Assembly: GCA_011390615.1 (NCBI GenBank)
Contig: JAABSB010000022.1
Location: forward strand, 1 to 32,683
Direction: 5' to 3'
Source of the DNA: Desulfotignum sp.
GTDB lineage: Bacteria; Desulfobacterota; Desulfobacteria; Desulfobacterales; Desulfobacteraceae
Length of the DNA stretch: 32,683 nucleotides
In this document: in pieces, positions 5,767 through 11,462 of the stretch
Layout of the letters: the number at the start of each line of letters is the position of its first letter
Numbering within the stretch: the first letter of the stretch is position 1
Notes under the pieces: generated by a model
The model's database searches: none
What the model was told of the DNA's origin: nothing
The model's input: the letters and a program-made list of their open reading frames with translations, nothing else
Translations under genes and position numbers: made by a program

Positions 5767-5844
5767 CAGTAACCAACAGGAAAAAAATGTAATTCTTACT
5801 GGAAGCTGATAACTGCGTACTGACAACTTTCATATAAATTGGTG

Positions 5845-6882
5845 ATGGAAAACAAAAACAGCATGAACATTTTGGCATTAACCCTGGAACAGTTAATCCA
5901 CACCCTTGAAACAGTGTATGGAAAAGGCCGGTTTCATGGCCGTGCCCTGTACCGGGAAATCTTTAAAAATGCAAATTCGGATTTTCTTTTTGTACCTGAA
6001 TTTGCCGCTTCCCAGGTATTGGCCAGGGATTTGGAAAAAAACATCTGCCTGGAACCAGGCCGGGTAAAAATGGTTTTCCAGGATAGGGATCTCACCAAGT
6101 TTATCACCCGGCTGTCCGATGGCATGGAGATAGAATCGGTCATCGTTCCCATGAACCGATACAATACCCTGTGCGTGTCCAGCCAGGTGGGATGCCGCAT
6201 GGGATGTACCTTTTGTGAGACCGGCCGCATGGGACTGCAACGCAATCTTACCATATCCGAAATCACGGGCCAGTTGTACAATGCCAGGCATGTGCTGAAA
6301 AAACAGATCAAAAATATCGTGTTCATGGGCATGGGAGAACCCTTTGACAATTTTTCACCGGTCATGGCTGCTGTAAAGATCATGAATGAGCAGAAAGGGT
6401 TTGACATTGCCTTGCGCCACATGACCATTTCCACGGCAGGGGTGGTGCCGGGGATCCGGAAACTGGCTGCCATGAATCTGCCCGGCATCCGGCTGGCCGT
6501 ATCGGTCAATGCCCCGGACAACCCGACCCGGTCACAGCTGATGCCGGTGAACAATGCCTGGCCCCTGGAAATGCTCAAAGAAACCCTGGCAGCCTTTCCT
6601 CTGCCCCGGAAAGGCACATTTTTGTTTGAATATATCCTTATCAAAGGGGTGAATGATACAAAGGCCCATGCAGAGAACCTGGCAGAATTTATTCATCCAT
6701 TGCCGGTGCGCCTGAATCTCATCCCCTGCAACCCGGTGCCCGGCTTTACCCATGAAAGCCCGTCAGATGCGGATATGAACCGTTTTTCACAGCACCTGGT
6801 TGGAAAAAATATTTTTGTCATCAGGCGTTGGAGCAAAGGCAGGTCTGTCTCTGCCGGCTGCGGCCAGCTGGGGCGGCGGTAG
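5845..6882 (+). CDS. rlmN: RlmN-like radical SAM 23S rRNA (adenine-C2) methyltransferase
   Basis: The 345-residue protein has the RlmN/Cfr catalytic set. The radical SAM cluster motif is CRMGCTFC (C117, C121, C124), and the GMGEP motif follows near residue 162. It also has the two extra cysteines used for methyl transfer: C110 in TLCVSSQVGC and C339 in SAGCGQL. E97 aligns with the E. coli RlmN glutamate E105. The enzyme family methylates C2 of A2503 in 23S rRNA (and some tRNAs for RlmN) through a protein-bound methyl group. The track start at 5839 is a TTG; I use the ATG at 5845. Another ATG at 5863 is possible, and neither has a clear ribosome-binding site. The segment CETGRMGLQRNLT differs from textbook RlmN, so this may be a paralogue of the housekeeping enzyme or lie nearer to the Cfr branch. 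Confidence 0.85.
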   Translation: MENKNSMNILALTLEQLIHTLETVYGKGRFHGRALYREIFKNANSDFLFVPEFAASQVLARDLEKNICLEPGRVKMVFQDRDLTKFITRLSDGMEIESVIVPMNRYNTLCVSSQVGCRMGCTFCETGRMGLQRNLTISEITGQLYNARHVLKKQIKNIVFMGMGEPFDNFSPVMAAVKIMNEQKGFDIALRHMTISTAGVVPGIRKLAAMNLPGIRLAVSVNAPDNPTRSQLMPVNNAWPLEMLKETLAAFPLPRKGTFLFEYILIKGVNDTKAHAENLAEFIHPLPVRLNLIPCNPVPGFTHESPSDADMNRFSQHLVGKNIFVIRRWSKGRSVSAGCGQLGRR

Positions 6883-8201: not shown

Positions 8202-9929
8202 TCATCCTTTGAGTTTTTTGATATTGTCCCTGGCAAAGTCAATGGTCGGATCGATTTCAAGGGCCATTTCATAGAATTTTACTGCCAGCGCGGTTTCCCC
8301 CAGTTCCCGGTAATTGGAACCGATATTGGCATAGTTGATGGCCTGGGACGGGTCAATCTCCAGGGCATTTTCAAAACAGGTGATGGCTTTGTGGTGGTTT
8401 TTCTGCATGAAATGACAGACCCCCATGGTGTTGAGCAGGTCCGGCCGCTGGGGGTCAACCGCCAGTCCTTTTTCACAGGTGACGACCGCCCTTTCATACA
8501 GGCCCAGATCCTTGAGACAGGCCCCCATGTGGGAACAGATGTCCGGCAGGTTCATGCGGGCCGGTTCTCTTTCCAGAGCGGTTTCAAATGCCTGGAGGGC
8601 CGTGTGCAGGTCACCCAGGGTATTGTACACCAGTCCTTTGTAAAAACTGGTGTAATATTGGTCTGGCAGGGCCTGTTCCAAGGCATCCAGATTGTCCAGG
8701 GCCTGAATGGGATCCAGGGTTTCGGTGATGAGCCTGGCTGAAAACATGCCCACGCTGGCAGATGCTGCCCGCTCTCTGAAATGGGCCCCCGGCATGATGG
8801 TGTAAAAGGCCGGGATATCCAGATCCTGGTGGCGGGTGTCAATGGCCAGGATCTGATAATCTTTTTTGCCCAGGGTGGCAATGAGATTTTCCACCTCCAC
8901 CCGGATATTGGGGTCTGACAGGTCCGGCAGATCAGACATATCCTTCATGGTCTCAGGATGGGTGATAAAGGCGGCATCTGCAATGCTGGTGAACTTGGGC
9001 AGGCCAGAGGCCACATAACTGGATCCGGAATTGAAATCCCCTGCCAGCTGGGCCACCTCGGTCAGGGCCCGGCCCATGGCTTTCTGGGGATCAGGCGCGG
9101 TGCCTGCGGTCCACACGATTTCACTTTTTTCCGGAAACGTGGCAGGATCCCAGGCCAGAACAGCGATGGTGGGAATGCCCGTGTCCAGGGAAAAATCTGA
9201 TGCATGCACCTGAATACCGCAGTTTTTGTATTTGGCCAGCATCTCCTGCACCAGAGGATCGGTGAAGGTGTCCAGATGGATGCCCGGGACAGCAAGGTTT
9301 CCGTGGCTCACCAGAGAAGAGGTATGCCGCTCCACCAGTTCGCAGATACCCTGGATTAAAGCCTCTTCATTGCAGTTGCCGGCACAGGGCCCATTGAATT
9401 CATTGATCATGTAAAACCAGGAAAAGGGAATGAGCACTTCTTTGCCCAGGGTCAGGTTATATCCTGTGGTCCATTGCAGTTTCAGGCTGTCAAATATGGG
9501 TTTGACCCTGTGGGCATCACCTGCATTGTCATGCACGGACCGGATGATCTGAGCAAAGGGCAGGATGTTTTCTCCCAGGTCCGCTGCCCGGGCAGAAAAA
9601 AAGTTACTTTTTTTGTTCACGAAGGAAAAAAAACTGAACCGTTCGGCCAGCTCCATGACAGCACTGGCTTCCGACTGGGCCGGGGTGCCGCCTTTTCCCA
9701 TCTGCTTGCTGGTGCCGATAACCTGCCTGGCATCCACACCGCATTCACTGAAAAACACCGGAATGTCCAGGCGGCCGTTGTCAATGCGCCGGGTCCGGCT
9801 TAGAATATCCAGCCGGGTTCCAGCCGCCTTTTTTCTGAACAGGTCCACGGTTTTTTCTGGCGAGATGATTTTGTCCTGGTCATAGGTGTAGCCTTTTACC
9901 GCGTCCGTGAGTTCGATGGCATATGTCAT
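8202..9929 (-). CDS. YcaO-family ATP-dependent protein fused to C-terminal TPR repeats
   Basis: The 575-residue protein has a YcaO domain at about 60-400. It includes the ATP/Mg-binding glutamate runs QSEASAVMELAERFS (about 85-99) and NEEALIQGICELVERH (about 187-202), plus ALTEVAQL near 288. Residues about 425-565 form about four TPR units, for example AITCFENALEIDPSQAINYANIG. YcaO enzymes phosphorylate peptide amide oxygens to make azolines, thioamides or amidines. The E. coli founder is linked to RimO-dependent ribosomal protein S12 methylthiolation. The proline-rich C terminus of azoline-forming enzymes is absent; this one ends KKLKG. No precursor peptide or TfuA partner is seen nearby. 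A MOSC-domain gene lies 98 bp upstream on the same strand. The substrate is therefore unknown; the TPRs could bind a protein target. Confidence 0.88.
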   Translation of the reverse strand: MTYAIELTDAVKGYTYDQDKIISPEKTVDLFRKKAAGTRLDILSRTRRIDNGRLDIPVFFSECGVDARQVIGTSKQMGKGGTPAQSEASAVMELAERFSFFSFVNKKSNFFSARAADLGENILPFAQIIRSVHDNAGDAHRVKPIFDSLKLQWTTGYNLTLGKEVLIPFSWFYMINEFNGPCAGNCNEEALIQGICELVERHTSSLVSHGNLAVPGIHLDTFTDPLVQEMLAKYKNCGIQVHASDFSLDTGIPTIAVLAWDPATFPEKSEIVWTAGTAPDPQKAMGRALTEVAQLAGDFNSGSSYVASGLPKFTSIADAAFITHPETMKDMSDLPDLSDPNIRVEVENLIATLGKKDYQILAIDTRHQDLDIPAFYTIMPGAHFRERAASASVGMFSARLITETLDPIQALDNLDALEQALPDQYYTSFYKGLVYNTLGDLHTALQAFETALEREPARMNLPDICSHMGACLKDLGLYERAVVTCEKGLAVDPQRPDLLNTMGVCHFMQKNHHKAITCFENALEIDPSQAINYANIGSNYRELGETALAVKFYEMALEIDPTIDFARDNIKKLKG

Positions 9930-10027
9930 GAAAATCTCTTTGTATCCAAAAGGTTATGGTTTACACAAATATGCCGGCCGGCATTGGAAAAGCATTTGAA
10001 AAAGGGAGCTGCTGGTCCTGGCATCTG

Positions 10028-10459
10028 TTATTTCACAAGGGTTACCGCATCACCCACCCGGATTGTTCCACTGGTAAGAATTTTTGCAAACACCCCTTCT
10101 TTGGGCATGATGCAGTCTCCGGTGCGGTAAAAAATGGCACATTTTTTGTGGCATTCTTTACCGATCTGGGTGATTTCCACAAGGGTTTTCTTCCCCAGCC
10201 GTACCTGCTGTCCGATTTTCTGGGTTTTCCAGTCAATGCCGGTAGTGGCGATATTTTCGGCAAAATCCCCGAACTGCAGAACAAACGTTTCGGTGCTGAC
10301 AGCATCAATGCTTTCAGCCGCCAGAAAACTGATCTGCCGGTGCCAGTTTCCGGCATGGGCATCCCCTTTGATGCCATGGTTTTCAACCAGTTCTGCCTGG
10401 TCAATGCACTGCTTAGTGGTGCCTTTTTTTTTGCTCATGGCAATGGAAACTATTTTCAC
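10028..10459 (-). CDS. MOSC-domain protein (small, stand-alone)
   Basis: This 143-residue protein is a single MOSC domain, the fold of the molybdenum cofactor sulfurase C terminus and of YiiM-type proteins. It shows the family pattern NHGIKGDAHAGNWHRQIS near residues 27-44 and a cysteine-rich segment GKECHKKCAIFYRTGDC. In related MOSC proteins a conserved cysteine in this region carries sulfur or contacts the molybdenum cofactor. Translation should begin at the GTG at 10457-10459, which has a good GGAAGGACC ribosome-binding site; no ATG fits as well. Stand-alone MOSC proteins of this size are often found near molybdopterin genes, but none is present here. The next gene downstream is the YcaO-TPR protein. 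Confidence 0.85.
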   Translation of the reverse strand: MKIVSIAMSKKKGTTKQCIDQAELVENHGIKGDAHAGNWHRQISFLAAESIDAVSTETFVLQFGDFAENIATTGIDWKTQKIGQQVRLGKKTLVEITQIGKECHKKCAIFYRTGDCIMPKEGVFAKILTSGTIRVGDAVTLVK

Positions 10460-10559: not shown

Positions 10560-10880
10560 TTATTTTTTTGCTGGTCTGTTCCGGGATTGTCCGTTAACAG
10601 GGATGGGCGCTGCAGGTTTGTCCACAGCGGTTGTCCGGGGAAAAGGGTTTGTTTTTGAAAAAAAAGCCGCATCAATGTGCTGGTTGATTTTTTTTGCAAG
10701 ACCAGGCGGCATTTTCTGCAGGGTAAAGGCCTGCTGTATACAGGCTTCAAGGCAGGTGTCCATGTCATATAACTGCCTGCAGACGTCACATTCCTGGATA
10801 TGGGCCAGTATACCGGGATTCTGCACCTGTTTATTCTTTGATGGGTTTTGCAGCCAGATAAAAAAGTCGTTACAGTTCAT
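10560..10880 (-). CDS. Soluble zinc-type (ZAS) anti-sigma factor
   Basis: This 106-residue protein starts 3 bp after the ECF sigma gene ends and is almost certainly co-transcribed with it. Residues 27-34 (HIQECDVC) match the H-x3-C-x2-C zinc-binding motif of the ZAS anti-sigma family. Such proteins hold an ECF sigma factor inactive, often until a redox or metal signal releases zinc. There is no transmembrane helix, so it should sense something in the cytoplasm. Three more cysteines (C3, C43, C47) are available. The C-terminal 35 residues are proline- and lysine-rich and look disordered. Confidence 0.75.
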   Translation of the reverse strand: MNCNDFFIWLQNPSKNKQVQNPGILAHIQECDVCRQLYDMDTCLEACIQQAFTLQKMPPGLAKKINQHIDAAFFSKTNPFPRTTAVDKPAAPIPVNGQSRNRPAKK

Positions 10881-10883
10881 GGG

Positions 10884-11462
10884 TCAGGTATGTTCCGGTG
10901 TGCTGTTTATGTGGGGGATGGTTTTCCCGCTGTTTTTCAATTGTTTCAACAATTTTATCTTTAATGCCTCCTTTGCCCTGTTCAGTCTGGACATCACCGT
11001 TCCAATGGGAATATCAAGGGTGCTGGCAATGTCTTTGTACAGCATATCATCCATATAATACAAGATCAAAATTTCTTTGTATTTTACGGGCAGCTGGTCT
11101 ATGGCATTATTCACTGTTCTGGTGTCAACTGCCTCTTCCAGCAGTGTGTCCGCTCCGTTTCTTTGCGTTTCAGACTTGAGGAATGCAATGTAGTCACTTT
11201 TCTGGAGCTGCTGCCTGACATTGTCTTTCTGGCAGGTTTTCAAAAAATTATTGCGCAGAATTCTCAACAGCCAGGGCTTGCATTTGGCTGGATCCTTGAG
11301 CTGGGAAAATTTGTGGAAAGCCATCATAAATGTTTCCTGAACAATATCTTCCGCATCAAATACATTGCCTGTGTATTTAAGGGCCACATTGTATAAAAGC
11401 TTCATATGGGGATATGTCAGCTTTTTAAACTGGCTTTGGTCTGTTTTTGTCTTCCATATCAT
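10884..11462 (-). CDS. ECF-type RNA polymerase sigma factor
   Basis: The 192-residue protein has the two-domain ECF layout. Region 2 includes NVFDAEDIVQETFMMAF (about 33-49), which covers the -10 binding helix. Region 4 includes IDQLPVKYKEILILYYMDDM and the -35 binding helix-turn-helix KDIASTLDIPIGTVMSRLNRAK near 143-164. It redirects RNA polymerase to a small regulon. The ATG at 11460-11462 is preceded by CAGGAT. An ECF-style promoter and a long inverted repeat lie upstream, suggesting autoregulation. The adjacent anti-sigma gene should control its activity. Regulon members cannot be named from this window. Confidence 0.92.
   Translation of the reverse strand: MIWKTKTDQSQFKKLTYPHMKLLYNVALKYTGNVFDAEDIVQETFMMAFHKFSQLKDPAKCKPWLLRILRNNFLKTCQKDNVRQQLQKSDYIAFLKSETQRNGADTLLEEAVDTRTVNNAIDQLPVKYKEILILYYMDDMLYKDIASTLDIPIGTVMSRLNRAKEALKIKLLKQLKNSGKTIPHINSTPEHT

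Follow-up and report, generated by a model that had tools for sequence, protein, structure and literature searches.

Phylum-wide association of a YcaO-TPR protein with DsrC in Desulfobacterota points to a candidate DsrC thioamidase

Across the phylum Desulfobacterota, a stand-alone YcaO-TPR protein, encoded in the 32,683-nucleotide stretch of Desulfotignum sp. DNA analyzed here (the window), occurs together with DsrC, and in several families its gene lies directly beside dsrC. The phylum-wide co-occurrence with dsrC and dsrA, the adjacency to dsrC and the association with Gly89-type DsrC are new here. Our best explanation, advanced tentatively and at somewhat less than even chances, is that YcaO-TPR uses ATP to thioamidate the backbone of folded DsrC. 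Family membership, active-site conservation, fold, Dsr co-occurrence, dsrC adjacency and the association with Gly89-type DsrC were computed directly, and from the phylum profile, the adjacency and the sequence association we infer DsrC as the client; the thioamide product, the modified site and a DsrC-gripping TPR domain are likewise proposals.

YcaO enzymes activate a backbone amide by ATP-dependent phosphorylation of its carbonyl, and attack by a sulfide nucleophile then yields a thioamide. The small protein DsrC, in the form of a trisulfide, ferries sulfur derived from sulfite between DsrAB and DsrMK(JOP). The YcaO-TPR family is already known, as the uncharacterized DVU2210 of Desulfovibrio vulgaris, which has the same two-domain make-up and the ATP motif SAGNTEEESILQGSCELVER (PMC7774982), compared with CAGNCNEEALIQGICELVER in the window protein. 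A YcaO domain with C-terminal TPRs and a matching ATP motif was found in sulfate reducers, including full-length copies in the Desulfovibrio-like genomes of f109, in whose DsrC the D. vulgaris tryptic peptide discussed below is present; orthology with DVU2210 is proposed from motif, architecture and lineage.

Features of the window and of related loci, with positions in the respective stretch
Feature	Position	Strand	Basis or remarks
YcaO-TPR protein, 575 aa, ATG start	8202..9929	minus	Pfam, AlphaFold2 model, homologues in order
YcaO domain, residues 77-382	8784..9701	minus	Pfam PF02624 1e-70
ATP/Mg-binding motif CAGNCNEEALIQGICELVER, residues 182-201	9327..9386	minus	catalytic residues invariant in 27 homologues
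C-terminal helical TPR domain, residues 393-574	8208..8753	minus	Pfam TPR_1 1.5e-28; helices in model
MOSC-domain protein, 143 aa, GTG start	10028..10459	minus	Pfam PF03473 5e-11; resembles MOSC half of PRK14499
MOSC segment CHKKCAIFYRTGDC, residues 103-116	10112..10153	minus	three Cys kept in 27/27 clade sequences
Anti-sigma-like protein and ECF sigma factor	10560-11462	minus	upstream of MOSC
RlmN-type radical SAM methyltransferase	5839-6882		barely above NCBIfam cut-off (294.6 vs 290 bits)
Second, shorter YcaO	L154 2617-4062, L155 2134-3663, L188 16440-17897		481-509 aa, fewer TPRs
Another YcaO, 437 aa, no TPR	L149 8092-9405		genome G023
TPR protein with YcaO-TPR-like end	L142 (1469-4470), L143-L148, L150-L152		

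The domain assignments are firm. The YcaO domain scores 239 bits against a curated cut-off of 25.7, placing the protein in the YcaO superfamily, and in the AlphaFold2 model (pLDDT 89.5) a YcaO fold precedes some ten helices, which correspond to the four C-terminal TPRs claimed in the initial annotation plus caps; by Pfam, the repeats occupy the C-terminal third. The ATP motif (C182-AGN185-C-N-E188-E189-ALIQ193-GICE197-LVE200-R201) conforms to the superfamily pattern Sx6-7Ex3Qx3ExxER, save that the first Ser is Cys182 in the window copy and Ser in most relatives. N185, Q193, R201 and the glutamates E93, E96, E189, E197, E200 and E291 are invariant across 27 homologues, in line with the ATP-binding glutamates noted at the outset. 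The protein ends in DNIKKLKG, within the TPR helices, so that the proline-rich (PxPxP) terminus of azoline (TOMM) synthases is indeed absent. The pI of YcaO-TPR is moderately acidic, at 4.9-6.3. Searching the whole genome (G000, a MAG 83% complete whose nearest named relatives are Desulfotignum MAGs) returned the identical YcaO stretch as the single YcaO match and no TfuA (PF07812), in agreement with the TfuA-less setting first described.

Comparison with characterized YcaO systems sets the protein apart from each of them. The best solved matches retrieved by Foldseek were LynD, M. jannaschii YcaO (6PE3, TMt 0.79), E. coli YcaO, MusD and M. kandleri YcaO, and the M. jannaschii- and E. coli-type enzymes belong to families with proven protein targets, which they thioamidate (PMC13063428). 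E. coli YcaO, the uL16 thioamidase (PDB 4Q84-86), likewise combines a YcaO fold with C-terminal TPRs and is stand-alone, with no precursor peptide, but the 26% identity to it, over 229 residues, covers the catalytic part only, the TPR parts do not align, and distribution and neighbors differ. Orthology was rejected, the score (42 bits) lying far below the cut-off of the equivalog model NF040716 (700 bits). The methanogen YcaO that thioamidates a McrA glycine offers a parallel in that it modifies a glycine within a large protein of energy metabolism, yet its target is different, its solved relatives (about 380 residues) end before any TPR, and the TIGR03266 model gives 108 bits against a cut-off of 365. 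Azoline-forming RiPP enzymes (LynD, TruD, SagD) share the catalytic fold and ATP motif, whereas YcaO-TPR lacks their PxPxP terminus and has no partner or precursor gene, and the SagD model scores 109 bits against 219. Thioamide-forming YcaO proteins that work with TfuA differ as well, given the TfuA result in G000.

Precursor peptides were also missing from the surroundings, as the initial annotation had stated for the window: among ORFs of at least 70-80 aa, no precursor peptide or azoline partner gene recurred in 30 and about 120 loci. With no recurrent small ORF or partner and no PxPxP, a RiPP function was rejected. The idea raised at the outset, a sulfur-dependent modification of a protein, remains the best reading in its first part, because the genes are stand-alone, no peptide ORF is conserved, the nearest folds include thioamidating YcaO proteins and, in many lineages, the neighbors handle sulfur; its second part, MOSC as the characteristic partner, is not supported beyond one clade.

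In the window, MOSC and YcaO-TPR share a strand, with MOSC 98 nt upstream, confirming the pairing described initially; in 26 named loci MOSC is likewise found upstream in the same orientation, 28-228 nt away. A neighborhood survey had been suggested as a check on this linkage: the pairing is recurrent, contrary to the outcome named as refuting it, but all 26 loci belong to relatives of Desulfotignum and Desulfobacula, and the partner recurring across families is DsrC. Within the family, MOSC was found in 33 of 59 genomes, Desulfobacter-type genera keep YcaO-TPR without any MOSC gene, and in G192 MOSC is unlinked to YcaO-TPR. Among 30 order-level loci, MOSC lies within 1.5 kb only in that of the window, that of a congener and two from a sister genus. 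Being confined to the Desulfotignum/Desulfobacula clade and not seen in the other order-level loci examined, the pairing is a clade trait and not a family-defining partnership; MOSC as a general partner was therefore rejected, and the gene is a purely local companion. One outlier, locus L156, has MOSC and Thi4-like genes on the strand opposite YcaO-TPR, about 1.5 kb from it; the YcaO-TPR of this locus scores like a Desulfobacterales copy although the genome (G344) belongs to f87, and the locus may reflect transfer or contamination, the genome possibly holding foreign DNA. The cysteine-rich segment noticed in the MOSC protein is genuine, Cys103, Cys107 and Cys116 being kept in 27/27 clade sequences and Cys18 in 26/27. 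The protein reaches 184 bits against the MOSC half of PRK14499 and resembles small MOSC proteins of this kind, the MoaC half being missing; as a MOSC domain only, with no fused NifS-like domain, it does not have the make-up of a Moco sulfurase. Relatives of the anti-sigma-like and ECF sigma genes that precede MOSC in the window were also found upstream in 12 and 15 of the loci surveyed, respectively, suggesting that a stress sigma factor may control the MOSC-YcaO pair.

Whole-genome searches covered the Desulfobacterota phylum. YcaO-TPR homologues are present in 211/243 genomes of the order, and full-length copies in 71 of the 197 genomes of a phylum sample (at least 90% complete, plus the window's own MAG). 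All 71 carriers have dsrC, so that in this sample the protein is found only with DsrC, and 70 have dsrA, the exception being the window's own incomplete MAG, in which dsrD and dsrC are located on other contigs. None of the 95 other dsrA-negative genomes carries YcaO-TPR (Fisher p 2e-27, uncorrected for kinship), and 31 genomes have dsrA without it. The sample also contains 26 sat-positive, dsrA-negative genomes, among which the window's MAG is the sole carrier, and three carriers show no sat match; since the other 25 lack YcaO-TPR, it tracks dsr rather than sat, and Sat was rejected as the linked function. The order sample is looser: at least three carriers at 90% completeness or more (G192, G004, G038) show no dsrA match, and G004, like some other carrier MAGs of the order, shows no dsrC match either, which may reflect gaps in draft assemblies.

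In 40 phylum-level loci, examined together with a coordinate comparison, dsrC is the immediate same-strand neighbor of YcaO-TPR, at 105-397 nt, in 15 genomes of 8 families. It lies about 150 nt upstream in 6/6 genomes of f85, and 105-397 nt downstream in f99, f117, f123, f128, f132, f141 and two f109 genomes. By chance, dsrC within 500 nt would be expected in about 0.03 genomes, a figure based on approximate averages of genome size and copy number; the independent origins of the adjacency are fewer than eight, because the arrangement in the six families f99-f141 may be a single ancestral one. Three f87 genomes have dsrC 2.7 kb away on the opposite strand, and in most carriers, the window's genome included, dsrC does not adjoin YcaO-TPR. 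Other neighbors handle sulfur, namely NIL-ferredoxin, HcyBio and Thi4 in f107, NIL-ferredoxin and MnmA in f98 and f131, and a LarE-like PP-loop protein in f118; the NIL-domain ferredoxin directly adjoins YcaO-TPR in L168, L176 and L188-L194 (f98, f107, f131). Neighbors without a sulfur link are TsaE (f84), an RNase D-like protein (f106/f136) and a methyltransferase (f109). Some genomes of f98, f107 and f87 encode a second, shorter YcaO (see table), which in G328 and G344 is close to dsrC, and in G023 the TPR-less YcaO, a small TPR protein and a 431-aa protein are encoded immediately ahead of dsrAB.

The presence of YcaO-TPR also goes with the type of DsrC sequence. We compared 104 DsrC sequences at the X of SGPXKGACK, which is residue 89 of the window organism's DsrC. 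Carriers have Gly89 (SGPGKGACK) in 44/45 sequences, all but an additional, second DsrC from G256, and non-carriers have Ala in 26/59 and Gly in 31/59; all 26 Ala-type sequences come from genomes without YcaO-TPR. Within f107, the residues equivalent to 70 and 89 are Ser/Gly in the carriers G309 and G334, against Cys/Ala in the non-carriers G276 and G358. Many genomes of the order without YcaO-TPR retain dsrA and Gly89-type DsrC, Gly89 being kept there save in two odd extra DsrC copies. On a DsrC tree built with both columns removed, the Gly/Ala state switches twice, YcaO-TPR being missing on the Ala side each time; with only two changes, an independent-pairs test of YcaO-TPR against Gly89 was not significant. 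The association is thus a lead for a putative modification site, drawn from sequence comparison, and not proof.

Ten dsrA-positive genomes gave TPR-only matches to the YcaO-TPR profile. These were rejected as divergent copies, being a different protein whose last approximately 145 residues resemble the YcaO-TPR repeats (41% identity) and which lies, in the fetched stretch, near a B12-binding radical SAM gene in 8/10 genomes, inside the dsr cluster in L142. Eight of the ten lack YcaO-TPR, and all eight have Ala89-type DsrC; the B12-radical-SAM/TPR pair may play a corresponding role in these lineages.

Published work on D. vulgaris offers further clues. Loss of DVU2210 together with sat confers molybdate resistance, S195R in its ATP motif behaves like a deletion, the deletion leaves growth on sulfate normal, and expression of DVU2210 does not make E. 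coli sensitive to molybdate (PMC7774982). During co-culture evolution, DsrC, Sat and DVU2210 each scored highly as targets of mutation (PMC8319347). In an interactome study, the DsrC peptide LKEVYELFPSGPGK was reported with trimethylation plus oxidation in three pull-downs (PMC3125180). This peptide contains no Met, Trp or Cys, and the Gly in question is its next-to-last residue. Replacement of O by S and addition of O on it differ by a computed 11 ppm, well within the 100 ppm tolerance of that study for protein identifications (PMC3125180), so that a thioamide is compatible with the reported +58 Da peptide, which is nevertheless ambiguous. The shift could be a real oxidation or, since iodoacetic acid was used (PMC3125180) and carboxymethylation also adds 58, lysine carboxymethylation. 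A PMC literature search returned no paper joining YcaO with DsrC or DsrC with thioamides, and the sole PMC paper with both YcaO and dissimilatory sulfite reductase appears to concern alkane-oxidizing archaea.

On the proposed mechanism, YcaO-TPR would grip folded DsrC through its TPR domain and activate an amide carbonyl with ATP, and sulfide sulfur would then replace the carbonyl oxygen. No TfuA-type sulfur supplier would be needed, as sulfide is plentiful in sulfate-reducer cells; MOSC, NIL-ferredoxin and the other sulfur-handling neighbors would be optional local helpers. Several observations speak against the proposal: the normal sulfate growth of the DVU2210 deletion strain (PMC7774982), the many carriers in which dsrC lies elsewhere, and the genomes of the order that keep dsrA and Gly89-type DsrC without YcaO-TPR. 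The likeliest site would be the SGPGK loop (Gly89), four residues ahead of the first redox cysteine (Cys93), and the thioamide shift of +15.977 Da would lie on the DsrC peptide EVYELFPSGPGK. Only two protein backbone thioamides are known, in MCR and uL16 (PMC13063428); that Gly89 bears a third, with the B12-radical-SAM/TPR pair possibly substituting in Ala89 lineages, is a narrower claim that we regard as doubtful, if possible.

Several other explanations were weighed. YcaO-TPR might thioamidate another protein, with DsrC, or elsewhere NIL-ferredoxin, MnmA, the LarE-like protein or MOSC, acting as sulfur donor or as a member of a sulfur-trafficking pool. DsrC does belong to the TusE sulfur-carrier family, and the range of sulfur-handling neighbors fits such a pool; however, E. 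coli YcaO with ATP, Mg2+ and Na2S thioamidates folded uL16, free sulfide sufficing in vitro (PMC13063428), sulfate reducers make sulfide, and strict limitation to dsrC genomes together with the Gly89 association points to a specific client, so that we consider a donor role unlikely. The target could instead be uL16 or another housekeeping protein: the gene is stand-alone, the pI and TPR domain are in keeping with this, RiPP context is missing, and E. coli YcaO, also TPR-bearing, thioamidates uL16 Met82 (PMC13063428). The low identity and NF040716 score argue against it, and a ribosomal target would leave confinement to Dsr genomes and adjacency to dsrC unexplained, making this quite improbable.

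A dedicated pair, with the cysteine-rich MOSC protein supplying YcaO with sulfur, would account for the 26 same-strand loci, the conserved cysteines and the 33 MOSC-bearing family genomes, but it fits poorly with the Desulfobacter-type genera, with G192 and with the other lineages examined, which have no adjoining MOSC save the opposite-strand case of L156; its probability is very low. The proposal made for DVU2210, that the protein converts molybdate and other oxyanions into activated AMP adducts, is less credible still. We know of no YcaO with this activity. Molybdate resistance in the sat deletion strain upon loss of DVU2210 or S195R supports it, yet E. coli with DVU2210 gained no sensitivity (PMC7774982), and the phenotype could be an indirect effect of an altered DsrC state.

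In one of Earth's principal forms of anaerobic respiration, DsrC is a carrier of sulfur. If YcaO-TPR does modify DsrC, an uncharacterized YcaO would gain a substrate, the mutations in DVU2210 and dsrC that arise when D. vulgaris evolves without sulfate would be explained, and the molybdate phenotype would have a route other than Sat.
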